From: a virus
IMG/VR virus record: IMGVR_UViG_3300017971_000275
Span: 1-64,000 of that record
DNA: 64,000 nucleotides
Strand: one strand, 5' to 3'
Program-made: the position numbers and the translations under genes
In this document: in pieces, positions 7,919-63,759 of the stretch
Layout of the letters: each line of letters starts with the position of its first letter
Numbering within the stretch: the first letter of the stretch is position 1
Notes under the pieces: generated by a model
Seen by the model: the letters and a program-made list of their open reading frames with translations, nothing else
Databases searched by the model: none
What the model was told of the DNA's origin: nothing

Positions 7919-9073
7919 ATGACTACTGAAGACAGCAAAACCATCAATTGGTTCGACCTCAGAACTCTCGCCGACCGCAAAACTGATGTTCGTGCGATCT
8001 GTGGGCGCCTCCTCCGCGTGTGGGGATACAACCTGGAAAAACGGAAGCCGGGGGTAGCATACGTCGATGCCGACGGCCACCCAGTCACAGACATGGACTT
8101 GGCTGTGTTCCTCTCTGGTCTCGTCGAGAATCGCATCGTCGGCAACCTTCCAGAGTATCAGGGTATGCGGGCCGCACAAAAACGCGAGGGCGAGTGGATC
8201 ACTTCCAAAAGCAATCGGCATGGTAGGCTTTGCGGCTTGTGGTCCAATGCTGCAGTCTCTTCGATGGGTGTCCGAGTCGAGGACTTGAACGTCATCCAAG
8301 CAAAAGAGAATGGGGAGACCGACGTCGGCGCACATCGTAACTTTGCGCTGCAAGACATCGATGGTAGCTGGCATGATGGATGGAACGCTGGGCTGGAGAT
8401 TCTTCCAACGGGGCTTCCGAACGAGGTATTCCAGAGCCTCAGCAAGGCCAGCCGTACCCTCAAGTTCCAATACTTCGTGCATCCTTCGCGGTGGCCGTCT
8501 CTCTACGGCAAGTACTACGTGGTGGCGAAGGCGGCTATCTTGCGGCTGCAGGATGAGATCCGGGAGACGAAGAAGTACAACAAGATGCTTCGCGATCAAC
8601 TGGGCATCCCCCCGAAGGTATGGCCGAAGACTGCTAAGGTGGGCGCCGAGGAGAAGCGCAAGGTGTGGGCCTACGAGGTCCTGCTCGACGGCTTCGAGCT
8701 CCATGGGGGGTATGCCTTCCTGGAGCTAGAAAAGGCCACAGACGCGCACTACAAGGCCATGACGGCCTACCAGAGGCGCCTCAACGAGTTCCTGGAGCAG
8801 CTACGGTTCCTGACGCGGGCTACCGAGTACGCCTTCAGGATGCATGCTGTGAAGCCGAACATCTCAGATGGCGAGGCGCTTGATTGGCTCAAGGGTGATC
8901 TCAACAAGCAGCCGCGGCTCCCTGTGTGGATCACCAAAGAGGGCAAGCGCTGGCACACTGGCTACGTCGAGCCAGGAAAGCGTACATCTTGGGCTCGCAT
9001 GGAGATGAAGGAAGGTACAGCTCTTCGTTTCCGCATGTGGCTTAAGTCTGAGCGCGTAGCCTCCAACTTCTAA
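7919..9073 (+). CDS. Hypothetical protein, promoter-proximal
   Basis: 384 residues from ATG 7919, chosen because an AGGAG RBS and a strong promoter lie just upstream and an earlier in-frame ATG (7814) lies before the promoter. Aromatic and charged throughout, with a central helix (about 215-290) and a C-terminal domain rich in Trp and Arg. No domain recognised. Its private promoter and following hairpin suggest a single-gene transcript, perhaps early. Confidence 0.6.
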   Translation: MTTEDSKTINWFDLRTLADRKTDVRAICGRLLRVWGYNLEKRKPGVAYVDADGHPVTDMDLAVFLSGLVENRIVGNLPEYQGMRAAQKREGEWITSKSNRHGRLCGLWSNAAVSSMGVRVEDLNVIQAKENGETDVGAHRNFALQDIDGSWHDGWNAGLEILPTGLPNEVFQSLSKASRTLKFQYFVHPSRWPSLYGKYYVVAKAAILRLQDEIRETKKYNKMLRDQLGIPPKVWPKTAKVGAEEKRKVWAYEVLLDGFELHGGYAFLELEKATDAHYKAMTAYQRRLNEFLEQLRFLTRATEYAFRMHAVKPNISDGEALDWLKGDLNKQPRLPVWITKEGKRWHTGYVEPGKRTSWARMEMKEGTALRFRMWLKSERVASNF

Positions 9074-9297
9074 TGACAGTGGTCATTGCAGACACACAAA
9101 CTGCAATGACTACTTGTCTACACTTCTTGTATATACGAATGATAATCGTAGATCAAAAGTCTAGATAACTTTAACAAATAGTTTGTGGCCACAACTGTAG
9201 CCACACTATAAACCAAGTGAATTCAAGCACATTCGTTTTTCTATCATTGAACATACTTAGATGTAACGTAATCATTACATGAACGAACTATGATCAT
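9074..9297 (+). other. AT-rich intergenic region with several inverted repeats
   Basis: No gene is seen in these 224 bases. A 14-bp imperfect hairpin (9078-9091 with 9101-9114, one G-T pair, 9-nt loop) follows the upstream stop. TGTGGC/GCCACA (9184-9205) and ATGTAA/TTACAT (9261-9280) are further inverted repeats. The region precedes a ribbon-helix-helix protein, so autoregulatory operators or a nicking/replication site are both possible. Confidence 0.5.
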
Positions 9298-9633
9298 ATG
9301 GACAGACAAAAAGCCATAAAACGCTTAGCGCAGCTCAGAGAGCTCGTTGAACATCCAGCAACGGGCGAGGATGAGCGTGATACAGCACTCCGGCGAATTC
9401 AAGAGCTGAAGAAACTACACAAGCTTGGTAGCTATGAGCTAGGAGAGGATTGCTCTTTCATCAGAAGGCGCAAGCCACGAGAGCTACGTAGAGATCGAAC
9501 TGTTAAGTTTCGGCTGACTGTAGGCGAAAGCAAACGACTAGATGAATTGGCGTCTAGGCATAACATGAGTGTGTCAGAATACATACGCAGTAGGATTTTC
9601 GGACCTACCAACACGGAACTGATGGAAGGATAG
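9298..9633 (+). CDS. Ribbon-helix-helix DNA-binding protein (MobC-like C-terminus)
   Basis: 111 residues. The C-terminal 45 residues (RTVKFRLTVGESKRLDELA then MSVSEYIRSRIFG) read as a ribbon-helix-helix fold like plasmid MobC/relaxosome proteins or phage Arc-type repressors. The N-terminal 55 residues form two charged helices. The palindromes directly upstream are natural targets. No relaxase is visible nearby, so regulation is more likely than mobilisation. Confidence 0.55.
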   Translation: MDRQKAIKRLAQLRELVEHPATGEDERDTALRRIQELKKLHKLGSYELGEDCSFIRRRKPRELRRDRTVKFRLTVGESKRLDELASRHNMSVSEYIRSRIFGPTNTELMEG

Positions 9634-9701
9634 AAATGGGGCATCGCAGGGCCAGCCAATCCTCCCTCTTTACGCAGACAGGTGAACCACAGGAGATCAA
9701 G

Positions 9702-53652: not shown

Positions 53653-53659
53653 GTCTGAT

Positions 53660-53745
53660 TGCTCGCACCGGGAGTCGAACCCGGATAGGGACTAAGCCCC
53701 GGGGGATTTTAAGTCCCCTGTGTCTACCTACTTCACCATGCGAGC
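53660..53745 (-). tRNA. tRNA-Leu (TAA)
   Basis: 86 nt, class II with long variable arm. Acceptor GCTCGCA-type, anticodon loop ACTTAAAAT with anticodon TAA, TTCGACT T-loop. No encoded CCA. Confidence 0.85.
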
Positions 53746-53752
53746 ATAGTAG

Positions 53753-53950
53753 CTACTCATCAAGTATATGACGGTCCAAACGTTCTTTGGCAACCTCTTC
53801 TACCGATTCTCTGGTGACGTTGGGGTTCTCTATGTTGGCGTTGCCGAACGCGAAGCTGATCCTCTGCTCCTGCCGCTCCTCGTTGGTCATCGGCCGTTTG
53901 GAGAGCTCCTCAGCTTTTTTATACAGCTCCTCTTCAGAACGACGTGTCAT
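53753..53950 (-). CDS. Small acidic helical protein
   Basis: 65 residues, acidic and helical. ATG 53950 overlaps the stop of the upstream gene (ATGA). Function unknown. Confidence 0.45.
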   Translation of the reverse strand: MTRRSEEELYKKAEELSKRPMTNEERQEQRISFAFGNANIENPNVTRESVEEVAKERLDRHILDE

Positions 53951-54105
53951 TCCTCTTCCTCCCAGGTGCCTTCGTCAACCTGCTTGACTACAAAATCCAC
54001 AAACCAATTGGGGACCTCGCAGGCGCCCGAGCTTGTGGTGTAAGGTATGAGCTCATTGGACATGACTCCGTAAAGCTCCAGAATAGAATCAGCTGCGCTG
54101 CTCAA
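53947..54105 (-). CDS. Small acidic protein with TTG start (missed ORF)
   Basis: 52 residues from TTG 54105, with an AGGAG RBS and the TTG overlapping the upstream TGA (TTGA); an internal ATG 54063 gives 38 residues. Ends in Glu-rich tail, then ATGA to the next gene. The three genes 53753-54350 form a translationally coupled chain. Confidence 0.4.
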   Translation of the reverse strand: MSSAADSILELYGVMSNELIPYTTSSGACEVPNWFVDFVVKQVDEGTWEEEE

Positions 54106-54350
54106 GCTTCGCTCCTAGTATTATGCGTCTCCTGCTTCCACGACCACTCTCCGGTGCGAGGGTCCCATTCACTTTTGCATTTTCGGCAACGCAAAAATCC
54201 ACTGAGCACCTGCAGCTTCTCATGACATCTATTGCACACTGTTGGCGCATCACCATCCAGGAATCTGTTTATCACCTCAGTAAGGAGTTCTACCTCTAAA
54301 TGAAGATGTATCACAACGGTTTCGTTGTCGTGCCTACCGACCAAGCTCAT
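54102..54350 (-). CDS. Zinc-ribbon protein
   Basis: 82 residues. CNRC and CRKC pairs (about residues 39-57) make a zinc ribbon. RBS AAGGGG. Function unknown. Confidence 0.5.
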   Translation of the reverse strand: MSLVGRHDNETVVIHLHLEVELLTEVINRFLDGDAPTVCNRCHEKLQVLSGFLRCRKCKSEWDPRTGEWSWKQETHNTRSEA

Positions 54351-54362
54351 TATACACCCCTT

Positions 54363-54907
54363 CTACCCCAATCCAGGTCTGAAGTATCGGTTGCCGTCGT
54401 GGTCCACGGATACCGTGGCGACGCCTATGACCTTGTTTTCTTCGTTGATACTTTGCAGCGTTACCGCCTGCCCGTAATGGAGATCTGTGTGGCCTATGCT
54501 CTTTTCAACAAGCTCGGGGTCAAACACGTACTCGCCCCACTTGGATTTTTCTCTTCATCCACAAAAACCACAGGCCGGTACTTTGGGTTGAAGCGACCCG
54601 CTACCTCACGAAGCAAAACCTGCACGACCCCGTCAAGCCGTTGTATTTCCTCTGCCATGGCAGTAAGAGTTTCAGATACCTTTGTTGGGAAGTCTTGCAT
54701 GGGGACGTAATCGAGGTCCGCCCTGTAGTTGGCTATATGCGGTCCGACACCATCCCAGCTGTAACTCCTACCACCATCACTATCGTCCAGGTACGAGCCA
54801 CAGCCCAAGCAAACGTAACCATGCCTCAGGCGAAACCACTCCGCATCCCGCGTATTGTTGGAACAGTGCCAACAAGGCTCAGGCTCTTTTTTGTTCTGTT
54901 CGCTCAT
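54363..54907 (-). CDS. Zinc-ribbon protein split by a -1 frameshift
   Basis: A first frame from ATG 54907 with CWHC and CLGC pairs (about residues 12-36) ends at 54494. A second frame, -1 relative, starting near a five-A run (54546-54550 on the complementary strand) continues the same protein with a well-formed sequence through to TAG 54363-54365, placing the next gene's RBS right after it. The joined protein is about 170 residues. Either programmed frameshift, mutation or sequencing error. Confidence 0.5.
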
Positions 54908-55131
54908 GGGTTTTTCCTGGGAAATTTTCTTATGAGATCAAACCAGCTGTGCGTAAGGACAGGAGAGCCACAAACTGGGCAGAGTGGCCTGGACTCACCA
55001 GCTTCGTAGTCCTCGTCTGAGGCGAGAGTATGGTCGTAGCAGACACAGCAGAAATACACACTGACATCAGTCGCGTTTGCTGTGTTCGTGACGTCAACGT
55101 CGTCTGAGCATAGCATTTTAGGTTCACTCAT
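54904..55131 (-). CDS. Zinc-ribbon miniprotein
   Basis: 75 residues with CCVC (about 28-31) and CPVCG (about 51-55), a complete zinc ribbon, and a basic end. ATGA overlap with the next gene. Function unknown. Confidence 0.5.
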   Translation of the reverse strand: MSEPKMLCSDDVDVTNTANATDVSVYFCCVCYDHTLASDEDYEAGESRPLCPVCGSPVLTHSWFDLIRKFPRKNP

Positions 55132-55146
55132 GCAGAAACTCCTTTA

Positions 55147-55220
55147 TGCTGCTGGTGAGAGTCGAACTCACAACATCTCGATTTTGAGTCGAGCGCCTCT
55201 GCCGATTGGGCCACAGCAGC
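55147..55220 (-). tRNA. tRNA-like, Leu (CAA) anticodon, class I variable loop
   Basis: 74 nt. Acceptor GCTGCTG/CAGCAGC, D-stem GCC/GGC, anticodon loop CTCAAAA (anticodon CAA), 5-nt variable loop, T-arm GTGAG/CTCAC. Leucine tRNAs should have a long variable arm, so recognition is doubtful. Confidence 0.75.
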
Positions 55221-55224
55221 TTAT

Positions 55225-55308
55225 TGCTGGCGGAGGGACTCGAACCCCCACGGGATTTCTCCCACTGGATCCTAAATCCAGGGTGGCTACCAATTACACC
55301 ACGCCAGC
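55225..55308 (-). tRNA. tRNA-Leu (TAG)
   Basis: 84 nt, class II. Anticodon loop TTTAGGA with anticodon TAG, variable arm GGGAGAAATCCC, T-arm GGGGG-type. Located 4 nt from the previous tRNA. Confidence 0.85.
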
Positions 55309-55317
55309 TCATAAGTG

Positions 55318-55326
55318 TATTTTACA
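55318..55326 (-). promoter_or_regulatory. TGTAAAATA motif upstream of the tRNA pair
   Basis: Reverse-complement copy of the motif, 10 nt upstream of the tRNA-Leu (TAG) 5' end on the same strand. Confidence 0.35.
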
Positions 55327-55359
55327 AGACCGCCTTCCACTGCCAACAACTGCCAAAAC

Positions 55360-55394
55360 AAAAAGGGGGAGGAGCCCCGAAGAACTCCTCCCCC
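55360..55394 (-). terminator. Intrinsic terminator after the ARPP-1-like gene
   Basis: A perfect 10-bp GC stem GGGGGAGGAG/CTCCTCCCCC (55365-55374 and 55385-55394) with a 10-nt loop; minus-strand transcripts run into TTTTTGTTTTGG after it. Very strong. Confidence 0.88.
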
Positions 55395-55423
55395 GAAAGG
55401 GCTTGGGTGGGACTATTCCCAAG

Positions 55424-56455
55424 CTAAATCTGGAACGCTCTGGTGAGCTTCCAGCCTTTGCGAGGATCCCATCCCTCAGACATTACCATCGACGCGTACA
55501 GGATGCTATCCGTGTTCGTGTCCGAGGCGATCTGCCCGAAGAACTGGTCGTTGCGGATCGTGGTCAGTCTGGCGACAGTGCTCCGTCCCTGCTCTGTCTC
55601 CTTGTGGAAAGGAGTATCCAACAGATCGCGCACCTGCTTCCTGACTAGCTCATCCTGCTGCTGGTCGGCGCTCTCCAACGCGTCACACAAGGCGTCCATG
55701 TTGGTGAGGTCATCTACCTGCAGAGGCGTTCTGGTCTTGAGAACCTTGTCCGCATCCTGCTTCTGGCGCGAAGCCATGATGGCAGCAGAACCGTAGCAAA
55801 CACGGACCAGTGGTTCCCATACAGATTTCCAGTACGCAGCTGAAGGAGCTCGCTCGACGCCAACCACGTTACCGCTGATCAGGATGATGGCACCAACCTG
55901 GTTGTCTACGATCTCGAACTCTGCGATGAACTGATCCAGCTCCTCGGCGAACTGCTGCATGTACTGCACCAGGTTCTGTGTGGAGCTCATACCAGATTGC
56001 GCAGAAAAGGAGCCGATGGACTGCCATAGCTTGTTGTACCGTCGATCCTTTCTCTTCTCCAACGCTGGACGACGCAAAGCCAGCGGCAGAATCAGCATCT
56101 TGTGCTGGTCCTCGCGAATGTAGCCACCCTGCGTAGCCTGGATGCACATGGCGTTGTCCCAGACCTCCCGTCCCTTCGGAGGAACGATACCAGCGGTTGC
56201 CATCGCATGGTCCTGCGCTGCCTGCTTGACAACGTAACCAACATGTGTTGGCAGCAGAACTGGCTTGCCCGAAGGGTTCGAGAAGACCATTTCTCCGTAG
56301 TTGCGCGTCCCGACGCGGACCACGTCTGGATTCTCGAAGCGGTCATCCTGTAGATCTTCATCGAGGATCAACGGAATCACCTGCATCACACCGACCGTCT
56401 GGATGCGCCCGACTTCGCAACCGCGAAGGATTTCTTTGATCGTTAGAGGCTGCAT
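55424..56455 (-). CDS. ARPP-1-like protein
   Basis: 343 residues. The first third (IRPLTIKEIL-like start, then PVLLPTHVGYVVKQ, GIVPPKG, VWDNAMCIQATQG) resembles ARPP-1 (ADP-ribosylglycohydrolase- and phosphatase-associated) domains, which sit in RNA/NAD-linked conflict systems in bacteria. It lies 1 nt downstream of the Ro60-like gene in one operon. Function inferred only as part of an RNA-handling pair; the C-terminal two thirds is unassigned. Confidence 0.4.
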   Translation of the reverse strand: MQPLTIKEILRGCEVGRIQTVGVMQVIPLILDEDLQDDRFENPDVVRVGTRNYGEMVFSNPSGKPVLLPTHVGYVVKQAAQDHAMATAGIVPPKGREVWDNAMCIQATQGGYIREDQHKMLILPLALRRPALEKRKDRRYNKLWQSIGSFSAQSGMSSTQNLVQYMQQFAEELDQFIAEFEIVDNQVGAIILISGNVVGVERAPSAAYWKSVWEPLVRVCYGSAAIMASRQKQDADKVLKTRTPLQVDDLTNMDALCDALESADQQQDELVRKQVRDLLDTPFHKETEQGRSTVARLTTIRNDQFFGQIASDTNTDSILYASMVMSEGWDPRKGWKLTRAFQI

Positions 56456-56456
56456 A

Positions 56457-58577
56457 TTACACCTCCTGCTGCAGCTCGTCCATCGGACGTTGTAGTACAG
56501 CCGCAGCCTGCTGACCGAGTTTCGTGTACAGGACGTAGTCTGTGCTTCGACCTGCTTTCTTGACTAGCCTACGGCGCCTTAGCGCTTCGACTGTCTGTGG
56601 CCTCACGCCAGCACCGCGGTAGTTGATTTTCCCGTCGACCTGGACTCTGTCCATATCAACGAGAGCATCGCGCATCGTCGGAGAGAGCTCACCGACAACG
56701 TCAAGTAGACGCTGCGTTACTGCCACCGAACGTCGCCGTCGTGGCTTGGGCAGCTCCACCTTAGGCGCCTGGAGCGCCTTCTGGCCCTGCCGCAGCAGCG
56801 CACGCAGACCGTTGAGCGGATCCTGCTCCAACGCTTCACGTAGAAGCGCAGTCCCGAAAGACTTGGGATCCTGCACAGGCATCGTCGGGATCACCCCTGA
56901 AGCCAATGAGCGCACCGAAGCAGTCTCCGCAGCAGACACAGGGTTCAGGTGGTAGATGGGCGTCGAAACCCCCATCTGCCTGATGGCCCGGACAGTCTCA
57001 GCGAAACGTCCAGCTGGGGTGTTGTCGTAACCATCGCTGATCACGTACACCGCAGACGGACGGTGATCGCGCATCGCTTTGGCCAGCGGCAACGCCAACG
57101 AGGTGTCCCCCGATGGACGTACCAGCCTACCACTGCGCTTACCACCAACCAGAACCCGACGGGCTCCTGCAGCTTGTAGCATGTCGCTCAGCGCCAAAGC
57201 AGATGCCATTGGACGAAGCTTCTGCGTCTCATCTCCAGACATCGAGCCTGAGGCGTCGACGATGACCACTGCATCAGAGCAGTCGAACGGCAGCAACGTG
57301 GCTGCCTGCTCAGCTTTCTCATCCAGCACATCGCGAATCTCCGCCGTCATCCCACGCTCGTAAGCGTAGACGTACAGCTTGATCGCGTCGTAGCGCTTCG
57401 GATCAAAGTCAGCCTTCGCCCCAGCTCGCTGCAGGCGCCGCTGGTGCTTGATCTTCTGCCCGTCAGTGAGCGCCTTCGTCTTCGACGTCAGACGCAATAC
57501 GTCGTCATGTGAGCGATCCTTGTGGAACACAGACCGGATACCTTCCAGAACTTCTGGGGGCAGGTTGCGTCCATCACGCAGGTCGTCACGCGCGTTGACG
57601 TAAGCCTTCAGGAGCGGAACCGTCCACGACTCTTCTGTGCTACCCAGCACAAACGCGACACACTGGCTGACGTGCCCTCGGTCGTTGTCGGTGTAGGCCC
57701 ACACGTGATCGTTGAGGATCCCGCGCTCTTTTTGCGTCCAGTGACGCTTACGGCAAATGCTGGCCACCATTGAAGCGGCGCGCTTACCCCACGCGTGCTG
57801 GAGCGCCCGACGCATCTTCCGGCGGTACTTGACAGCCCACCAGTCGAGCTTATCGGACCCCAAGATTGAGGTCAGGATCACCCGGCGCGTACGCTTATTG
57901 TTGCAGCCCGACTGATGCAGCATCTCGAAGAGCTGGAACATACGCGGAGCGGTAACCGCATTGACCAGGGCGGTGATGAGCTCGCGCTCACGCTGCAGGT
58001 CATACTGCGTAGGACGTCCCACTCCTGGCCACTCCAACAGCATCCACGCGGCCAGCTTACGTGCGTTGTCCGTCAAACCTGACAGGCACGACAGCAATCC
58101 GTAGGCGCCGCGGTCGATACTGAACATCGCGGCGTGCGCCAGCTTCTCGGCGCGCTGCTGGTCTTCCTTGGTGTTGTAGTGCGTTGCCCGGTTCATACCA
58201 GTCGTCGCCTGATCCAAGTAAGACGCCACTACGCGTCCAACGATCCGCTGCTCGCGCGGGTTGAGGTTTACTCTATCACCGCGCAATAGTTTCTTGGCGA
58301 GGCCAGGAACCTCTGGGATCGCGTAGCGCTCGCAGAAAATGCGGTTGCTGGTGCACTTATTGTACACCTTGTCCGCATCGGCTTGGTCTGGAACGATGTA
58401 ACCGTCCAGTAGCCTACCGTTGGGACCAGGAACTGCTTTGAGTCCCGGCTCCACGGACAAGCCGAGCTTGAGCCCGAACTTGCGCCCGCGCTCGCTGCCG
58501 TCGATGAACAACACGTGAGAGGTGGACTTCGCCCCCAGCTCACGGCGCAACTTGGTCGTTTGTAGTCCCTTACGCAT
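56457..58577 (-). CDS. Ro60/TROVE-like vWA protein with C-terminal winged helix
   Basis: 706 residues from ATG 58577. N-terminal 430 residues are a helical repeat domain (motifs NKRTRRVILTSILGSDKL and WWAVKYRRKMRRALQHAWG). The vWA domain has an intact MIDAS: DASGSMSG at 441-448, T492 in GDTSLALPL, D515 in ISDGYDN. The last 100 residues are a winged-helix-like fold. Ro60 proteins bind misfolded and Y RNAs; the Y-RNA-like cluster 2 kb away supports this reading. Its own sigma70 promoter lies upstream. Confidence 0.6.
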   Translation of the reverse strand: MRKGLQTTKLRRELGAKSTSHVLFIDGSERGRKFGLKLGLSVEPGLKAVPGPNGRLLDGYIVPDQADADKVYNKCTSNRIFCERYAIPEVPGLAKKLLRGDRVNLNPREQRIVGRVVASYLDQATTGMNRATHYNTKEDQQRAEKLAHAAMFSIDRGAYGLLSCLSGLTDNARKLAAWMLLEWPGVGRPTQYDLQRERELITALVNAVTAPRMFQLFEMLHQSGCNNKRTRRVILTSILGSDKLDWWAVKYRRKMRRALQHAWGKRAASMVASICRKRHWTQKERGILNDHVWAYTDNDRGHVSQCVAFVLGSTEESWTVPLLKAYVNARDDLRDGRNLPPEVLEGIRSVFHKDRSHDDVLRLTSKTKALTDGQKIKHQRRLQRAGAKADFDPKRYDAIKLYVYAYERGMTAEIRDVLDEKAEQAATLLPFDCSDAVVIVDASGSMSGDETQKLRPMASALALSDMLQAAGARRVLVGGKRSGRLVRPSGDTSLALPLAKAMRDHRPSAVYVISDGYDNTPAGRFAETVRAIRQMGVSTPIYHLNPVSAAETASVRSLASGVIPTMPVQDPKSFGTALLREALEQDPLNGLRALLRQGQKALQAPKVELPKPRRRRSVAVTQRLLDVVGELSPTMRDALVDMDRVQVDGKINYRGAGVRPQTVEALRRRRLVKKAGRSTDYVLYTKLGQQAAAVLQRPMDELQQEV

Positions 58578-58651
58578 GGCGGGTGTCCCTTTCTGCACTG
58601 GTGAGAGTGCAAGTAATAATGTGTGGCCTTAATAAAAGCGGCCAGCAGATA

Positions 58652-58680
58652 CTTTATAAACAGTCGGTATGTCGTTGTCA
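58652..58680 (-). promoter_or_regulatory. Sigma70-type promoter for the Ro60-like operon
   Basis: Minus strand TTGACA (58675-58680), 17-nt spacer, TATAAA (58652-58657), 75 nt before the start codon; the leader contains a GGCC-stem hairpin and CACATTA. Confidence 0.75.
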
Positions 58681-58690
58681 AGTGTCAAGC

Positions 58691-59090
58691 GTACCACTAA
58701 CACGTGCGTGTGGAGCGCTTGCCGTGCCAGCAGGAGGCAGACAACACCGATTCGTACCACCCACACGTACGTTGGAAGCATATAGCATGGCAGCGACGTC
58801 CTTGCTGGACATGAACGTACCATCCACACATAGGTGGGAAGCACGAAGAGCTGGGCCGGCAGGTCTTCCAGAGGCAGCGTACCATCCACACATACGTGGG
58901 AAGCATCTATAGCCAGGAGGGCCAGTCCGTCGATCGCGGCGTACCACCCACACGTGCGTAGGGAGCACGTACTGTCTGCTTACCCCTAGGCAATGCCTGC
59001 AAGTACCACCCACACGTACATGGGAAGCGCTCAGCGCGTGGGCAGGGCCACAAGCCGGGGCTACGTACCACCCACATGCGTGTTGCCGAG
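58691..59090 (-). CRISPR. CRISPR-like array of seven repeats, overlapping the 3' end of tnpB
   Basis: Seven copies of a 26-nt repeat start at 58691, 58754, 58817, 58879, 58941, 59003 and 59065, separated by six unique 36-37-nt spacers. On the plus strand the repeat begins GTACCACCCACAC and ends GTGGGAAGC, with a CCCAC/GTGGG stem. The copy at 59065-59090 is degenerate in its second half and contains the last codons of tnpB; its stop TAG (59061-59063) lies at the repeat-spacer border. Spacers do not resemble one another. No cas1, cas2 or other cas gene is seen. Confidence 0.8.
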
Positions 59091-60437
59091 CTTCGCAACT
59101 CGGCTTTCCTGCTTCTTAGGCTCCGCTACCGGAGGTCCTCCACAGGCTGCTTTACCGCATGATCTGCGGCTGTTGAAATTTTTGATGTTCTTCGCAGCGT
59201 TGATGTCAGCGTTTTCTGTGTGGCCGCACTCAACGCACAAGAACACGTCTCTGGTTTTTCGGTTTTCCTTGGAAACATGCCCACACACGGAACACGCCTG
59301 CGACGTGTAGTGCGGTGGAACAAGGATCAGCTTGCCTCCTCGTTCTTTGAGCTTGTACTCCAGCATGGTCTCGAACATGCCCCAGCCTCTTTCCAAAATG
59401 GAGCGGTTCAGACCGGACTTTTGTTTGACGTTTTTGCCGGGCTCTTCTTTCGTGCCCTTAGCGCTTTTCGTCATGTTTGCTATCTGTAGATCTTCCAGCA
59501 CCACCACACCGTAACGCTCCGCGTAGTAGTTCGATTCTTTGTGGAGGAGATCTCGCAGCATCCGACTTTTACGCTTCCTGAGGCGAGACAAGTTGGCTAC
59601 AGCTTTACGATGGTTAGCCGAGTGTCTTGTCTTCAAACACTTCTTCTTGCGCTTCTTCTTAACCTTTTTTGTGTCGGTATCTATTTGGCGCACTGCCCGC
59701 TTGATGCGCTTTTCAATGGCAAAGTAGGCTTGCGGGAGCTCAACCAAACGACCGTCGCTGTCTGCGATCAAGTATTTGACGCCGCGGTCGATTCCCACGA
59801 TGGGAATATCTTTTTCCGCTGGTGTTGGAATCTCCAGTACGTAAGAGCACGACGCGTACCACTTACCAGCCTCAAGACAGATCGTACATCGACGCAAGGA
59901 TTTAAATTCCGGCATACGATGAGTTTTTGTGCGGATGTACCCTAAGCTTCTCCCGTAAACATAGATCATGCCATCAAGGAGCTTCCACGCAGAAGCTCCG
60001 AAAATGCCGATACCGACCGGTCTATTACGCCCTCGGAATTTTGGCTTACCTCCTCTACCTTCGTACCACGCGGTGAAAGCGCGGTTTACTGCTTCGACGA
60101 TCAAGATCATCGCGGCGCGCGGAACTCCTTTAAAGAAGTCCATTTTGCGGATCTCGGTGAGCTGCGCTGACATGCCCCGGCTAGCGTGCTGGAAGAATTC
60201 CTTCCAGCCCCGCTTCTTGGGATCCATCTCGATGCCCACCTGACGGTAAGCGTTGGTTAGCAGTCCTTCGTCATCGTAGCGCGTAGCCCGACGATGCGCA
60301 TACATAAACCGGTGCTCCAGCACTACGTTGTAAAGTACGCGTAGGCGCCATTCCCAGTCGCGCAGGATTTCTTCCTGTTGGGGTGTTGGATAAATGCGGT
60401 AACGAGTAGCGCGTTCCAGTTTGAGCTTCTCGCTCAT
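59061..60437 (-). CDS. tnpB: TnpB-like RNA-guided nuclease (IS605 OrfB family)
   Basis: 458 residues. RuvC-type catalytic residues all present: D217 (IVGIDRGV), E315 (VVLEDLQ), D411 (ENADINAAKN). Zinc ribbon CxxC pairs at C382/C385 and C401/C404. The C-terminal KKQES motif is the usual TnpB tail whose DNA also encodes the 3' scaffold of the guide RNA. No TnpA or terminal repeats are nearby, so it seems a domesticated or stand-alone effector. Its 3' end enters the CRISPR-like array. RBS GGGGA and ATG 60437. Confidence 0.85.
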   Translation of the reverse strand: MSEKLKLERATRYRIYPTPQQEEILRDWEWRLRVLYNVVLEHRFMYAHRRATRYDDEGLLTNAYRQVGIEMDPKKRGWKEFFQHASRGMSAQLTEIRKMDFFKGVPRAAMILIVEAVNRAFTAWYEGRGGKPKFRGRNRPVGIGIFGASAWKLLDGMIYVYGRSLGYIRTKTHRMPEFKSLRRCTICLEAGKWYASCSYVLEIPTPAEKDIPIVGIDRGVKYLIADSDGRLVELPQAYFAIEKRIKRAVRQIDTDTKKVKKKRKKKCLKTRHSANHRKAVANLSRLRKRKSRMLRDLLHKESNYYAERYGVVVLEDLQIANMTKSAKGTKEEPGKNVKQKSGLNRSILERGWGMFETMLEYKLKERGGKLILVPPHYTSQACSVCGHVSKENRKTRDVFLCVECGHTENADINAAKNIKNFNSRRSCGKAACGGPPVAEPKKQESRVAKLGNTHVGGT

Positions 60438-60460
60438 GCGTAATGGTCCCCGGTAATGTG

Positions 60461-60477
60461 GTCCGCTTTTAGCGGAC
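60461..60477 (-). promoter_or_regulatory. Hairpin in the tnpB leader
   Basis: Perfect 6-bp stem GTCCGC/GCGGAC with loop TAAAA, then CACATTACC, 24 nt before the start of tnpB; a comparable hairpin-CACATTA arrangement precedes the Ro60-like gene. Confidence 0.35.
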
Positions 60478-60486
60478 GGTAATAAA

Positions 60487-60565
60487 TCGAGGAAGTTTGA
60501 AGGTCGCGTGGTGAATGGTTTTCAAATGAGCGAAAAACTTCTGTAGCAACCTAAGCAGTCCTCGA
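60487..60565 (-). ncRNA. Y-RNA-like module A
   Basis: Lower stem TCGAGGA/TCCTCGA, internal loop, second stem AGGTTGC/GCGACCT, TACAG motif, and an enclosed 40-nt payload with no tRNA. Last of six modules on the minus strand. Confidence 0.6.
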
Positions 60566-60579
60566 TACTCGTAAATAGC

Positions 60580-60699
60580 TGGTGGAAATGTGAACGTCAA
60601 GTTTTGGTGAATTGCAGGACTCGAACCTGCGACCCTCTCGTTGATAGCGAGATGCTCATCCAACTGAGCTAAATTCTGTATTGACGTTGCCGTCCACCA
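60580..60699 (-). ncRNA. Y-RNA-like module B
   Basis: Lower stem TGGTGGA/TCCACCA, second stem AACGTCAA/TTGACGTT, TACAG, enclosing a tRNA domain in normal order. Both stems differ in sequence from the other modules but keep pairing, giving strong covariation. Confidence 0.75.
60605..60678 (-). tRNA. tRNA domain with ATC anticodon (Asp-like), weak acceptor
   Basis: D-stem GCTC/GAGC, anticodon stem TCTCG/CGAGA, loop CTATCAA (anticodon ATC, codon GAU), T-arm GCAGG/CCTGC. Only five acceptor base pairs (GAATT/AATTC) and a CCA-like end follow, so it may be a tRNA mimic rather than a functional tRNA. Confidence 0.55.
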
Positions 60700-60702
60700 A
60701 AA

Positions 60703-60748
60703 TGGAGCGCTTGGGAATCGAACCCTATCGAGCCACCAGGGTGCTCCA
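60703..60748 (-). tRNA. 46-nt tRNA-like remnant
   Basis: TGGAGC/GCTCCA acceptor-like ends and a TTCGATT T-loop remain but no D- or anticodon arm. It fills the whole gap between modules B and C. Possibly a deleted tRNA gene or a truncated module. Confidence 0.4.
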
Positions 60749-60750
60749 GA

Positions 60751-60887
60751 AGAGGAAATGTGAAAGCAAAGAGAATGAGTTTTGAACTTCTCGGGCATAG
60801 AGAGCCCGAGCCTGGATTCGAACCAGGAACCTTTCGTTTTACGGACGAATGTTCTTCCAATTTTCTGTACTTGCTTTGCAGTCCTCT
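60751..60887 (-). ncRNA. Y-RNA-like module C with a circularly permuted tRNA
   Basis: Lower stem AGAGGA/TCCTCT, second stem AAGCAA/TTGCTT, TACAG. Enclosed tRNA domain is permuted in the D-loop. A conserved hairpin (60904-60919) and the string GAACAGATA lie just upstream, as in module D. Confidence 0.75.
60781..60864 (-). tRNA. Circularly permuted tRNA domain, GTA anticodon (Tyr)
   Basis: Order on the transcript: D-stem 3' strand GAAC, anticodon arm TTCGT/ACGAA with loop CCGTAAA (anticodon GTA), T-arm CCTGG/CCAGG, acceptor CTCGGGC, linker TCTCTAT, acceptor GCCCGAG, D-stem 5' strand GTTC. The ends sit in the D-loop. Position 33 is C instead of the universal T, and there is no long variable arm, so decoding is doubtful. 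Confidence 0.65.
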
Positions 60888-60930
60888 ACATCGAATATCT
60901 GTTCACCGCATGAGCAGTGGTTGTTTTAGA

Positions 60931-61055
60931 TAGAGGAAATGTGACAGCAGCAATTCCCAATGAACTTCTCCCCGTTAAAAGCCGGGGAGCTTGGATTCGA
61001 ACCAAGACCTATCACTTTGGAGGTGATTGTTCTGTACTTGCTGTGCAGTCCTCTA
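60931..61055 (-). ncRNA. Y-RNA-like module D with a circularly permuted tRNA
   Basis: Lower stem TAGAGGA/TCCTCTA, second stem CAGCA/TGCTG, TACAG whose G is also the first base of the D-stem. Encloses a permuted tRNA. A related hairpin at 61071-61086 precedes it. Confidence 0.75.
60953..61032 (-). tRNA. Circularly permuted tRNA domain, CCA anticodon (Trp)
   Basis: Order: D-stem GAAC, anticodon arm ATCAC/GTGAT with loop CTCCAAA (anticodon CCA), T-arm CTTGG/CCAAG, acceptor CTCCCCG, linker GCTTTTAA, acceptor CGGGGAG, D-stem GTTC. Discriminator G as in bacterial tRNA-Trp. This is the most tRNA-like of the three permuted domains. Confidence 0.7.
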
Positions 61056-61097
61056 CACCGTTTATCTGTTCGCCGCTTGCGCGACGGGTATTTTAAA

Positions 61098-61243
61098 TCG
61101 AGGAAGGGTATCGGTAGAAGATGGATTGTTTATCCACCGCATCAATAAGCGGTTGCCTTTACCAATTTGGCCACATCCCCCTAGTTGGGGATGCCAGGAC
61201 TTGAACCTGGAAAATTTTCCTGTACCTACCGATTAGTCCTCGA
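61098..61243 (-). ncRNA. Y-RNA-like module E with a permuted tRNA-like domain
   Basis: Lower stem TCGAGGA/TCCTCGA, second stem ATCGGTAG/CTACCGAT (8 bp, perfect), TACAG. The start of the module overlaps the end of the small CDS at 61226-61405. Confidence 0.75.
61123..61216 (-). tRNA. Circularly permuted tRNA-like domain with 8-nt anticodon loop
   Basis: Order: T-arm CCAGG/CCTGG, acceptor CATCCCC, discriminator A, linker ACTAG, acceptor GGGGATG, D-stem GCC/GGC, anticodon stem ACCGC/GCGGT, 8-nt loop TTATTGAT, then a GGAT/ATCC variable-arm hairpin. The loop length and ambiguous anticodon argue for mimicry rather than decoding. Confidence 0.55.
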
Positions 61244-61405
61244 AAAATGATTTCTCCTCACGTTATCGTAGGCTTTAGCAGCCTGCGCTCTTGTTGTCTT
61301 GATGCCCTCTCGGGCTTGCGTCGCGATGATCGTCCGGATCATCAGCTCTCTACGTTGCGCCTCATTACTGAGGATCGAGCGGATGTCAAGGCGTCTTCGC
61401 GGCAT
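61226..61405 (-). CDS. 59-residue basic helical protein (missed small gene)
   Basis: ATG 61405 with an AGGTAG-like RBS, TAG at 61226-61228. Highly basic N-terminus (MPRRRLDIR) and a long Arg/Ala/Gln helix. Its last codons run through the lower stem and second stem of module E. No family recognised. Confidence 0.45.
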   Translation of the reverse strand: MPRRRLDIRSILSNEAQRRELMIRTIIATQAREGIKTTRAQAAKAYDNVRRNHFSRTNR

Positions 61406-61420
61406 CTACCTAAAAATTAG

Positions 61421-61552
61421 TCGAGGAAATTCGAGAGTAAGAGGCGAAAGTAACAAGGAGCGGGATTTGAACCCGCGACCTTCGGTTTATAAGACCGACG
61501 CTCAACCAACTGAGCTATCATTGTTGTTCTGTACTTACTCTGCCGTCCTCGA
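61421..61552 (-). ncRNA. Y-RNA-like module F
   Basis: Lower stem TCGAGGA/TCCTCGA, second stem AGAGTAAG/CTTACTCT (8 bp, perfect), TACAG, enclosing tRNA-Ile in normal order. Its 5' strand overlaps the last codons of the gene at 61535-61780. Confidence 0.8.
61452..61524 (-). tRNA. tRNA-Ile (TAT)
   Basis: Acceptor ACAATGA/TCCTTGT with one mismatch, D-stem GCTC/GAGC, anticodon stem TCGGT/ACCGA, loop CTTATAA (anticodon TAT, reads AUA), T-arm GCGGG/CCCGC. A TAT anticodon is uncommon in bacteria, which normally modify a CAT tRNA. Confidence 0.8.
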
Positions 61553-61780
61553 AATCGTAAAGCTTGCTCCGTGGAGTTTTCCACCCACCCAGCCTAGCTC
61601 ACCTTTTAAAGAGAGGGTGACCTTTGCTGTGTCTTCCTTGAGTGGCGGTAGCTCCTCAAGTGTTTCCATGATTATAGGCAGCAGGATTTCCCTGTCAAGC
61701 TTTTTGTCAACCACGGAGGCAAATTCTTCGAGAAAAATCTGCTCCGCTTGAGCAGCGAGCTTTTGCTGCTTACTTGACAT
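61535..61780 (-). CDS. Hypothetical helical protein
   Basis: 81 residues from ATG 61780, internal Met after the upstream stop; other Mets lie 12 and 63 nt earlier. Its stop falls in the lower stem of Y-RNA-like module F. Contains MSSKQQKLAAQAEQIF and an acidic middle. Function unknown. Confidence 0.45.
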   Translation of the reverse strand: MSSKQQKLAAQAEQIFLEEFASVVDKKLDREILLPIIMETLEELPPLKEDTAKVTLSLKGELGWVGGKLHGASFTISRTAE

Positions 61781-62009
61781 TGTCACACTCATTTCTCCTA
61801 TGCTGCCAGTAGAACACAAATAAGTCCTTGACACCAACAGCAATACCTGCAGCTATGGCCGCCCACAGACCTGTGGAAGTATCCTCTCCCGGCCATAACG
61901 TTGGGCGGAGCAGCAGGAAAAAGACGAAGCCACTGCAGACCCCGAGGAGCGCGGTGAACACGATCGTCAGTAAGCGCAGCTGCCATTTATACTGAGCTGT
62001 TGTTCCCAT
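61770..62009 (-). CDS. Two-helix membrane protein
   Basis: 79 residues with hydrophobic segments at about 10-33 and 47-66, paralogous to the next gene (shared G-F-x-x-x-L-L-x-R-P-x-x-W-P segment). Function unknown. Confidence 0.5.
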   Translation of the reverse strand: MGTTAQYKWQLRLLTIVFTALLGVCSGFVFFLLLRPTLWPGEDTSTGLWAAIAAGIAVGVKDLFVFYWQHRRNECDNVK

Positions 62010-62214
62010 TTTTCCGCTGCTCCCAGTAGTCCCACCAAGTCGTCACAGAAAAGAAGAGCACTCCAAGACCTACCCAAAGCCAGAAAATCAAGAATGTAGA
62101 ACGAGTAGGCCAAACAAAAGGGCGCACCAATAAAAAGATGAGGAAGCCGCTTACGGAGGCGACGGTAGCTCGAATGAGGTTGCAGAACACCGCTTTCCGG
62201 AAGCTATCCGACAT
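61987..62214 (-). CDS. Two-helix membrane protein, paralogue of previous
   Basis: 75 residues with helices at about 13-32 and 39-58; aromatic-rich second half. Tandem duplicate of the neighbour with diverged sequence. Confidence 0.5.
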   Translation of the reverse strand: MSDSFRKAVFCNLIRATVASVSGFLIFLLVRPFVWPTRSTFLIFWLWVGLGVLFFSVTTWWDYWEQRKNGNNSSV

Positions 62215-62220
62215 GGTTGC

Positions 62221-62487
62221 TTACTCCAGTGAAGGAGGAGTAGCGAGCCTCTGCAATCGCTCGTCACCTTCATTACCTTGCAGCCACTCTTGGTAGTAGA
62301 TGTGTTGAGGTATCTCCTCCCAATTGACTGCGCTGTCCTCATCGGTGCCCACTGGCTGGAAGTTGACGTTGCTTGGAGACTCACCCACCAAGCACGGGTT
62401 GAAGAACCCGGTGGTCTCTACCTGCGCCAAGATGTGCATAACCTGCCCACCACTATGGCGATAGAACTTGCCGACCTCGAATTGCAT
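62221..62487 (-). CDS. Hypothetical small protein
   Basis: 88 residues, beta-rich with acidic C-terminus. No domain recognised. Confidence 0.45.
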   Translation of the reverse strand: MQFEVGKFYRHSGGQVMHILAQVETTGFFNPCLVGESPSNVNFQPVGTDEDSAVNWEEIPQHIYYQEWLQGNEGDERLQRLATPPSLE

Positions 62488-62540
62488 GGACGCCTCCGTG
62501 TATGCATGGTAGTTATCTTTCCCTAGGAGGATTTCTATCC

Positions 62541-63068
62541 ATGCGAAAAATTATCAAGTTCCGCGGCAAAAAGTACCACGCGGCTACGCTTGCCGATATT
62601 CAGGATCGCGACGATTTCATCGGTTTACATTGTCAAGCTCGACCACGCGCTAGCATTGACCAAGAGGATACCATCGGTAGCGGGCAAGGCCAAGGAAAAT
62701 ACGGCTACGGTAGCTACGTACCTGAAATCCTCGACTCGCTTTCCTTTGATCTCCGCGACATCGCCCTCGAAAAAGGTTGGATGGAAAATCCTCCCGGTGA
62801 GTACGACGACGGCTACGAGGACTGGCTCGACGAAGTCTACGATTTCCTCGATGACCATGGCATCAAGTGGATCTTCGTCAGCGAGAACAAACCTCTCACC
62901 GATTACGGAGATTACTGCTACGGCATCCTCCTTCCCGATAAAGCGGTGCTCACGGTCATCCCCGACATCGGAGTGGACGACGCAGCCAATGCGTACGTGT
63001 ACAACGCCAACGTCGCTATTCCTTCAGTGGTGGAGATTGATGAGGAGGAGCTGGAGCAGTACTACTAG
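62541..63068 (+). CDS. Tagged acidic protein on the opposite strand
   Basis: 175 residues from ATG 62541 after an AGGAGG RBS; an earlier in-frame ATG lacks an RBS. Starts MRKIIKFRGKKYHAAT, a plus-strand copy of the shared tag, then an acidic Asp/Tyr-rich domain. Function unknown. Confidence 0.5.
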   Translation: MRKIIKFRGKKYHAATLADIQDRDDFIGLHCQARPRASIDQEDTIGSGQGQGKYGYGSYVPEILDSLSFDLRDIALEKGWMENPPGEYDDGYEDWLDEVYDFLDDHGIKWIFVSENKPLTDYGDYCYGILLPDKAVLTVIPDIGVDDAANAYVYNANVAIPSVVEIDEEELEQYY

Positions 63069-63306
63069 CTTCTTCCTCGTCGAGCTCTAGCCTCCAGCCC
63101 CCAAGCGCGATCACCTCTCCGTACTCATTGGTAGCCAGCTTCTGCACCGACCCGCAGTTTAAGCAGACAGCTTCCAATCCGCGCTTGCGGTACCGGAATC
63201 GTAGATGTTTGCAGTCTGCAGCTCTAGCACGCTTCTCCAATGAAGTAAGGCGACGCCCTTTCATCGAGCGCGTCTTTCTCCGCGTACCACGAAACGACTG
63301 CCCCAT
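63016..63306 (-). CDS. Basic zinc-ribbon protein
   Basis: 96 residues. Basic N-terminus, single Cys and CLNCG (about 31-52) form a probable zinc site, acidic tail. 3' end overlaps the convergent gene at 62541-63068 by 53 nt. Function unknown. Confidence 0.45.
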   Translation of the reverse strand: MGQSFRGTRRKTRSMKGRRLTSLEKRARAADCKHLRFRYRKRGLEAVCLNCGSVQKLATNEYGEVIALGGWRLELDEEEASSTAPAPPHQSPPLKE

Positions 63307-63644
63307 TACTCTACCATCCGATCGTACGCCAGCATAGCTCCGCTACGCTCCGTATCGAACACTACGAAGTCTAGCCCCTCGCAGTTGGCAGCGGCGCTCT
63401 TATGGTGATCCAATACCACAAGCTTGTTGGCGAGTTCGTTGATCTTCAACAGCTCTTCACGCGGATAGCTAAAATCCACGATCCACACATCACGGTCTTT
63501 TACGAGCTCAGGAGCTGGCGGATCATCGCCATACTGAGCATCTAGGAGCTCTCCACCACTCAACCCGGTGTGTAGAATAAGAGCTCCGCAAATCCCGTCG
63601 CTACAGCCTTGATGATGAATGATTAATGGCTCTCTTGTATCCAT
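63306..63644 (-). CDS. Truncated DHH-family phosphoesterase-like protein
   Basis: 112 residues from ATG 63644. HHQGCSDGICGALI, VWIVDFSYP and LVVLDHHKSA match motifs I, III and DHH-like of DHH phosphoesterases (about 250-350 residues), but the protein ends at the AMLAYD segment, lacking the C-terminal DHHA1 half. A short inactive or adaptor version. RBS GGAGG. Confidence 0.5.
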   Translation of the reverse strand: MDTREPLIIHHQGCSDGICGALILHTGLSGGELLDAQYGDDPPAPELVKDRDVWIVDFSYPREELLKINELANKLVVLDHHKSAAANCEGLDFVVFDTERSGAMLAYDRMVE

Positions 63645-63669
63645 AAGTGTACACCTCCATCTGTACACC

Positions 63670-63678
63670 TATTTTACA
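63670..63678 (-). promoter_or_regulatory. TGTAAAATA motif before the DHH gene
   Basis: Minus-strand copy about 30 nt before the ATG at 63644 and downstream of a tRNA. Confidence 0.35.
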
Positions 63679-63686
63679 AGATGGTT

Positions 63687-63759
63687 TGGGCACGCCGGGA
63701 TTCGAACCCGGAAATCTGCGGACTGAGCGCAGCGCCTTTGCCTGTTAGGCCACGTGCCC
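63687..63759 (-). tRNA. tRNA-like, Leu (CAG) anticodon, class I variable loop
   Basis: 73 nt. Acceptor GGGCACG/CGTGCCC, D-stem GCC/GGC, anticodon stem CTGCG/CGCAG, loop CTCAGTC (anticodon CAG), 5-nt variable region. Position 37 is T, unusual, and no leucine-type variable arm; same pattern as the tRNA at 55147-55220. Confidence 0.75.

Follow-up and report, generated by a model that had tools for sequence, protein, structure and literature searches.

Putative Y-RNA-like units with unpermuted and circularly permuted tRNA domains upstream of a phage gene for a Ro60-like protein

The array and its docking stem

A stretch of viral DNA of 64,000 nucleotides (positions 1 to 64,000 of the 73,299-base IMG/VR virus record IMGVR_UViG_3300017971_000275), hereafter called the window, contains an array of six putative RNA units, designated A to F, which lie at 60486–61553, all on the minus strand, upstream of genes encoding a 713-amino-acid Ro60-like protein and a 343-amino-acid protein on the same strand. 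Each unit is built on a docking stem, which in all units except A encloses a tRNA domain in either normal or circularly permuted order. A first-pass annotation of the sequence had described six modules that share a lower stem, an internal loop, a second stem and the motif TACAG; all of these elements were found in the six units, and the pattern was absent from shuffled sequences. Read from 5′ to 3′, the stem consists of a lower helix (S1) whose first strand ends in GG, an A, a loop of the CTGC or CGGC type, a second helix (S2) and TACAG, and its 3′ side consists of the complementary strand S2′, approximately 7 unpaired bases (CACATTT, CGAATTT or TACCCTT) and S1′. Across the phage modules, S1 comprises 5–8 bp, the internal loop places 5 nucleotides (ACNGC) opposite 7 (CACATTT-like), and S2 comprises 7–8 bp followed by UACAG; in the window, the A after GG and TACAG are spaced by 12 nucleotides, except in unit A, where the spacing is 13. 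The annotation had also held that both helices change in every unit while pairing is kept. The S2 sequence is indeed distinct in all six units and the pairing is retained, whereas S1 is common to A, E and F (CGAGG) and to C and D (TAGAGG), with GGTGG in B.

The pattern GAGGACKGC-N6-9-GTACAG occurs three times in the window, compared with 0.00 times in shuffles, and the pattern GGACNGC-N7-9-TACAG occurs five times in the 73-kb record, every time within the array, with no occurrence of the reversed pattern. The folding energies of the individual units correspond to z = −3.35 to −4.36 relative to dinucleotide shuffles. Covariation was assessed in an alignment of 24 units of identical spacing from seven phages, in which a four-base stand-in linked the 5′ arm of each unit to its 3′ arm. 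Paired cells amounted to 90.1%, compared with 64.6% after shuffling, a percentage favored by the setting of the alignment registers by hand with pairing in mind, the most distant units included. The covariation score was 0.707, compared with 0.207 in shuffled alignments (0 of 500 reached 0.707) and at most 0.192 in slid registers, and two-sided changes were present in 15 of the 16 stem pairs; because orthologous units are related, there were fewer events than the cell counts suggest.

A covariance model (CM R1), which was trained with the four-base stand-in in place of the inner domain and therefore misses many units with long inserts, training ones included, was used solely as a held-out test. 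It recovered units outside the training set, namely unit A of the window (60486–60566; 36 bits, E = 2e-6) and the units at 4538 of L168, 9822 of L145, 9821 of L143 and 9828 of L142 (E = 1e-6 to 3e-4), where L numbers denote loci in other viral records. The covariance model and phage search proposed in the annotation thus recovered held-out modules, and modules were also found upstream of homologues of the 713-amino-acid gene in other phages. No significant match to CM R1 was obtained near the canonical Ro60 genes of phages.

tRNA domains and anticodon turnover

The inner segment of each unit was analyzed with ARAGORN, both as a linear sequence and circularized with trimmed ends. Linear tRNAs were identified in units B and F and in most of their orthologues, in agreement with the normal order assigned to these two units in the annotation. 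Unit F (61420–61553; 47.8 bits with CM R1, as a training sequence) carries its docking stem around a domain at 61450–61525 called as tRNA-Ile(tat), with 69.5 bits for the Rfam tRNA model RF00005. Unit B (60579–60700; 44.7 bits with CM R1, also as a training sequence) has a docking stem of GGTGG and CCACC around a domain at 60606–60678 called as tRNA-Asp(atc), with 52.1 bits for RF00005 and an acceptor of 5 bp that incorporates the G of TACAG. In units C, D and E, the predicted tRNAs cross the junction of the circularized segment and leave a short acceptor loop, which indicates the permuted order that had been claimed for them; no junction-crossing tRNA was found in 123 shuffled inner segments. 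Linear tRNAs whose own acceptor has been trimmed also yield junction-crossing calls, and these were not counted as permuted. Unit C (60749–60889) contains a tRNA-Tyr with the anticodon GTA and the acceptor loop TCTCTAT, and unit D (60930–61056) a tRNA-Trp with the anticodon CCA and the acceptor loop GCTTTTAA; both were matched partially by RF00005, with 26.6 and 26.0 bits, respectively, against a cut-off of 29. Unit E (61097–61244), which has orthologues in L001 to L004, has an anticodon loop of 8 nucleotides. Permuted tRNAs were likewise identified in the E orthologues of L001 to L004, the D orthologues of L001 and L002, and units of L146, L147, L149, L158 and L168.

Inspection of the sequence placed the opening points of C and D in the D-loop and that of E where the variable arm meets the T arm, in agreement with the new ends given in the annotation; in two units of L149, the opening falls between the D and anticodon stems. 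The order in unit E is accordingly T arm, closed acceptor (CATCCCC-AACTAG-GGGGATG), D arm, anticodon arm and variable arm. Within a single array, the tRNA-like domain is thus attached to the docking stem through the acceptor (B and F), the D-loop (C and D) or the junction of the variable and T arms (E), and unit A consists of the docking stem and a short hairpin, without a tRNA domain. In L149 (8225–8950) and L147 (8237–8774), the acceptor loop retains the discriminator and CCA, with an AU-rich stretch after them, as in CCTGGCC-ACCA-CATTTAT-GGCCAGG, and this suggests that such domains began as tRNA genes; judged from their sequence, these closed acceptors are good candidates for RNase P cleavage. 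The acceptor loops of the close group are shorter and contain no CCA.

The anticodon turns over between orthologues. Among the five F orthologues, identity is 96% over most of the domain, 86% in the acceptor, 65% in the anticodon-loop flanks and 30% in the anticodon itself (positions 34–36), the last being close to the random level, and none of the 10 pairs of orthologues has an identical triplet. Among the B orthologues, 6 of 30 anticodon positions are identical, compared with 22.5 expected at the whole-domain rate, and again none of 10 pairs has a triplet in common. The pattern is less sharp for E and D/C, with anticodon identity at 13 of 30 and 9 of 18 positions, respectively. In the distant group, unpermuted domains carry the anticodons TTA (which would read a stop codon), ACA, ACG, CAT and TGA, and some domains have A or C at position 33 in place of U33, while the anticodon arm itself is retained across the domains. 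The retention of the tRNA body, combined with a changing triplet and the occasional loss of U33, makes it unlikely that these domains serve decoding. A diversifying triplet and one that is simply free of constraint would give the same pattern in these data; the anticodon is the fast-changing, and hence possibly contested, part of the domain.

Two further kinds of sequence lie among the units. A tRNA minihelix at 60704–60747 (minus strand), between C and B, consists of an acceptor and a T arm with neither an anticodon arm nor a docking stem; its outline resembles that of mascRNA, for which the match was weak and non-significant (16.7 bits). Several linkers between units, such as 61057–61096 and 60890–60929 (minus strand), contain a small hairpin followed by a GAACAGATA-like sequence with counterparts in relatives, for example GCTGAAGAGATAC in L002, and this combination is possibly a processing site. 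The free-standing phage tRNAs in the window (53659–63759) and in L001 to L004 are almost all tRNA-Leu isoacceptors, with taa, caa, tag and cag in the window and similar Leu sets plus Met in L001 and L002; tRNA-Leu may be a target of host defense or of codon demand.

Neighboring genes and relatives

The 713-amino-acid protein is encoded at 56457–58598 (minus strand), and its homologues also have modules upstream. Identification of this protein as Ro60 by sequence was attempted with Pfam, PHROG and PDB sequence searches and gave no significant match; a weak Pfam match to VWA_CoxE was obtained. An AlphaFold2 prediction from 5 sequences was poor (predicted local distance difference test, pLDDT, 49), and the model used was that from 21 homologues, in which the core reached a pLDDT of 86 and a predicted template modeling (TM) score of 0.82. 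In this model, a helical solenoid of approximately 20 helices is followed by an α/β von Willebrand factor A (vWA) domain, which is the domain order of Ro60. The vWA domain has a DxSxS metal ion-dependent adhesion site (MIDAS) motif, and the homologue alignment shows the motifs DASGSM, GDTS and SDGY. A profile–profile comparison with phage TROVE proteins aligned the vWA region and the segment before it (probability 84, E = 7e-6). A Foldseek search retrieved viral VWA/DUF2828 proteins over approximately 550 columns, most of the length (E = 1e-5 to 1e-3, TM approximately 0.4), and next a TROVE protein of an uncultured phage (E = 0.017); the best matches in the PDB were unrelated B12-binding and MIDAS domains (TM approximately 0.2). 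The predicted model therefore makes the protein Ro60-like by architecture only, and the profile evidence for homology is weak.

The gene directly downstream (55424–56455, minus strand) encodes the 343-amino-acid protein, which belongs to ARPP-1 (PF20208, 123.9 bits). An open reading frame (ORF) of 325–367 amino acids occupies the directly downstream position at all loci examined, ARPP-1 was matched in every one scanned, and no second ARPP-1 gene was found in the records searched. According to a published prediction, ARPP acts on ribose moieties in ADP-ribose-linked conflict systems (PMC9503650). A predicted sigma-70-type promoter at 61671–61698 (minus strand; TTGACA-16-TATAAT), 118 nucleotides upstream of unit F, matches the consensus at 12 of 12 positions; by consensus matches, similar elements lie ahead of the arrays of L004 (12/12) and L002 (11/12) and are visible in L001 and L003. 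Downstream of the last unit of L004 there is a terminator-like hairpin.

Between the units and the 713-amino-acid gene lies a TnpB-like gene (59061–60437, minus strand) for a 458-amino-acid protein of the TnpB/IS605 OrfB type with a Cas12f1-like_TNB domain. Seven degenerate 22-nucleotide repeats (CGTACCACCCACACGTACGTGG-like) are present at 58690–59085, at the 3′ end of this gene, with a spacing of 62–63 nucleotides and unique sequence between them, an arrangement that looks like a CRISPR-like or multi-guide array beside a phage TnpB. In L001 (approximately 9050–9680), a possible IS605/OrfB-like remnant was recognized by eye on the opposite strand, within the array between D and B, and TnpB elements may have inserted repeatedly at these arrays.

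The close relatives of the 713-amino-acid protein are encoded at L001 to L004 (55–65% identity); L006, in the 462-kb phage LR756500, shows 37% identity, and distant relatives show 34–45%. The independent phages are fewer than the contigs, because L142 and L148 are nearly identical and some of the metagenome projects contributed several loci. The arrays of L001, L002, L003 and L004 contain four, five, three and three units, respectively, which lie upstream of the gene on its own strand and share the order F, E, (D/C), B, (A). At distant loci, units with UACAG or UUCAG were found within approximately 2.7 kb upstream of the gene. At one score threshold, the descriptor matched 71 times upstream of the gene, compared with 18 times downstream and 19 times antisense. 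These descriptors were refined on the same sequences, and the contigs are fragments; the first descriptor missed UUCAG modules, and the widened one raises the background, so that the evidence lies in the count of 71 against 18–19 and not in single weak matches. In a pattern scan of viral contigs, the matches listed were mostly due to chance, and among them only L044, on the same contig as L004, had a module array. A nucleotide search of phage records gave matches to tRNA-like stretches only.

Interpretation and comparison with known systems

Taken together, the sequence comparisons suggest that the array probably encodes six phage Y-RNA-like noncoding RNAs that partner the neighboring Ro60-like protein as a ribonucleoprotein (RNP). 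In such a system, a single transcript of the array would be cut into units, each docking stem would bind the putative ring protein of 713 amino acids, and the tRNA domain would recruit or occupy an enzyme that recognizes tRNAs. The most likely role of the domains would be that of bait for, or competitive inhibitor of, host tRNA or anticodon nucleases. Host anticodon nucleases press on phages, whose tRNAs escape through changes in the anticodon stem-loop (PMC11455837), and bait is the leading reading because these nucleases are a known pressure and the domains keep the anticodon arm while changing its triplet. This last step is advanced tentatively, as a role that the sequence pattern permits and that may well prove to be another; if true, it would constitute an RNA-based counter-defense against tRNA-cleaving immunity. 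A fuller version, in which a novel class of phage RNP, formed by the divergent Ro60-like protein and ARPP-1, displays permuted tRNA mimics with hypervariable anticodons as baits that neutralize host anticodon nucleases, is rather doubtful.

Several observations weigh against the Y-RNA-like RNP and its bait step. The annotation had placed a Ro60-like gene near the array; the solenoid and vWA architecture agrees with that description, but the protein matched neither the TROVE profile PF05731 nor the vWA_Ro60 profile PF25045 of Pfam, on which two known phage Ro60 proteins score 143–220 bits, and the Foldseek search against the PDB found no Ro60 structure. The bait step draws on one line of evidence, anticodon turnover, and a full loss of anticodon constraint would look alike. 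Since ARAGORN accepts B and F as tRNAs, excision of these domains by RNase P and RNase Z is possible, as far as can be read from the sequence. Several of the distant modules were found by the very descriptor that defines them.

The main alternative to bait keeps the Y-RNA-like RNP and differs in its last step: the tRNA mimics would tether host polynucleotide phosphorylase (PNPase) or another RNase to the Ro60-like ring to degrade structured RNA, as in the RYPER-type arrangement of Y RNA and Rsr in Deinococcus. The units have the two-part plan of YrlA, and in known bacterial Y RNAs, including YrlA, the basal stem serves for binding to Rsr and the tRNA-like domain for binding to PNPase (PMC8394870). 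The known effector domain, however, consists of the D, T and acceptor arms only (PMC8394870), and a tether leaves unexplained both the whole anticodon arms with their triplet turnover and the presence of three attachment points in one array. By analogy with the bacterial system, this alternative is worth considering but rather unlikely to be correct. It is improbable that the units are permuted tRNA genes, that is, precursors matured by cleavage and religation as in algae and archaea, with the docking stem as a processing device. The near-complete tRNAs in permuted order would fit such genes, as would the closed acceptors of L149 and L147, in which the discriminator and CCA precede an AU-rich leader as in pre-tRNAs and permuted tmRNA. 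Against this stand the non-conserved anticodons of orthologues, the loss of U33 in several domains, the 8-nucleotide anticodon loop of unit E, the acceptor loops without CCA in the close group and the occurrence of the same stem in unit A, which has no tRNA; in addition, RtcB was not found in the record of the window, which is a fragment. That ARAGORN and Rfam call B and F as tRNAs would also suit an ordinary phage tRNA cluster with coincidental flanking hairpins, an explanation rendered scarcely credible by the covarying docking stem of fixed geometry in 24 modules, the permuted domains, the conserved position upstream of one gene and the non-conserved anticodons.

For the tRNA-like domain of Salmonella YrlA, competitive inhibition of an anticodon nuclease has been proposed (PMC7790460), which provides a precedent for the preferred Y-RNA-like reading with its bait step. 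The Rfam alignment of YrlA (RF02553) comprises an S1 of 6 bp, a loop of 5 nucleotides opposite 8, an S2 of 7 bp, CUA, the T arm, a closed acceptor and the D arm. The phage units share with it S1, an asymmetric internal loop (5 nucleotides opposite 7–8), an S2 of 7–8 bp, a UA-containing link and a tRNA-like domain with a closed acceptor; unit E even has the same order of T arm, acceptor and D arm, and known YrlA genes adjoin a ring-protein gene, the gene near the phage units being Ro60-like by architecture. The YrlA-type plan asserted in the annotation is therefore borne out in the geometry of S1, loop and S2, but not in family membership: a search of 60440–61620 with RF02553 gave no match at E ≤ 10, and YrlA lacks the anticodon arm, which is complete in the phage domains (unit E adds anticodon and variable arms). 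Moreover, the phage units form arrays of 3–6 with several attachment points and are partly unpermuted, with other orders in B, C, D and F and no tRNA domain in A. The units thus appear to work like Y RNAs, with no model match that would place them in the YrlA family or their protein in TROVE. Sub-threshold YrlA matches were also observed in the relatives' records, the best being at 215752–215863 (37.5 bits, against a gathering score of 69) of G001, the contig of L001; another match in G001 is at 218913–218970 (27.6 bits), and both lie more than 30 kb from the Ro60-like gene and close to tRNA genes.

Chen is said to have described, in 2014, Y RNAs near Ro60 in phages. The actinobacteriophages Alice, Beuffert, Forza, Sparky and FuzzBuster encode Y RNAs within a few kb of a TROVE Ro60 gene, a proximity comparable to that of the present units and the Ro60-like gene, and their YrlA matches score 33–52 bits, below the Rfam cut-off of 69. 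These RNAs differ from the units described here in having a T-acceptor-D domain without an anticodon arm and a canonical TROVE protein (two tested), and ARPP-1 was not found in the three Ro60-phage records checked (Beuffert, Forza and Phosso). TROVE proteins have also been noted in jumbo phages (PMC7824862). Ro60/Rsr and DUF2828 proteins have the same order of helical solenoid and vWA domain as predicted for the 713-amino-acid protein, whose close group differs by additional segments at both the N and the C terminus. Permuted tmRNA (RF04321) and permuted tRNA genes share with the phage units the circular permutation and the joining of the acceptor ends by a short loop, which in L149 and L147 still contains CCA; the phage units differ in having no tag ORF, no sign of religation and a docking stem that is common to units with an unpermuted tRNA or none.

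The annotation had judged the number of modules and the completeness of their tRNA parts unusual. Permutation alone is not new, being known from YrlA, in which a permuted tRNA also has its acceptor closed; the new features are that the tRNAs are complete, anticodon arms included, that they are attached at several points and occur in arrays, and that orthologues do not conserve the anticodon. Such arrays, conserved across divergent phages, provide a natural comparison set for the ways in which a tRNA mimic can be attached to an RNP and make the role of bacterial and phage Y RNAs directly testable. With them, Y RNAs, so far known as a single stem bearing a partial tRNA mimic, would come to include arrays in which whole tRNAs, circularly permuted in several ways, are presented by one docking stem.
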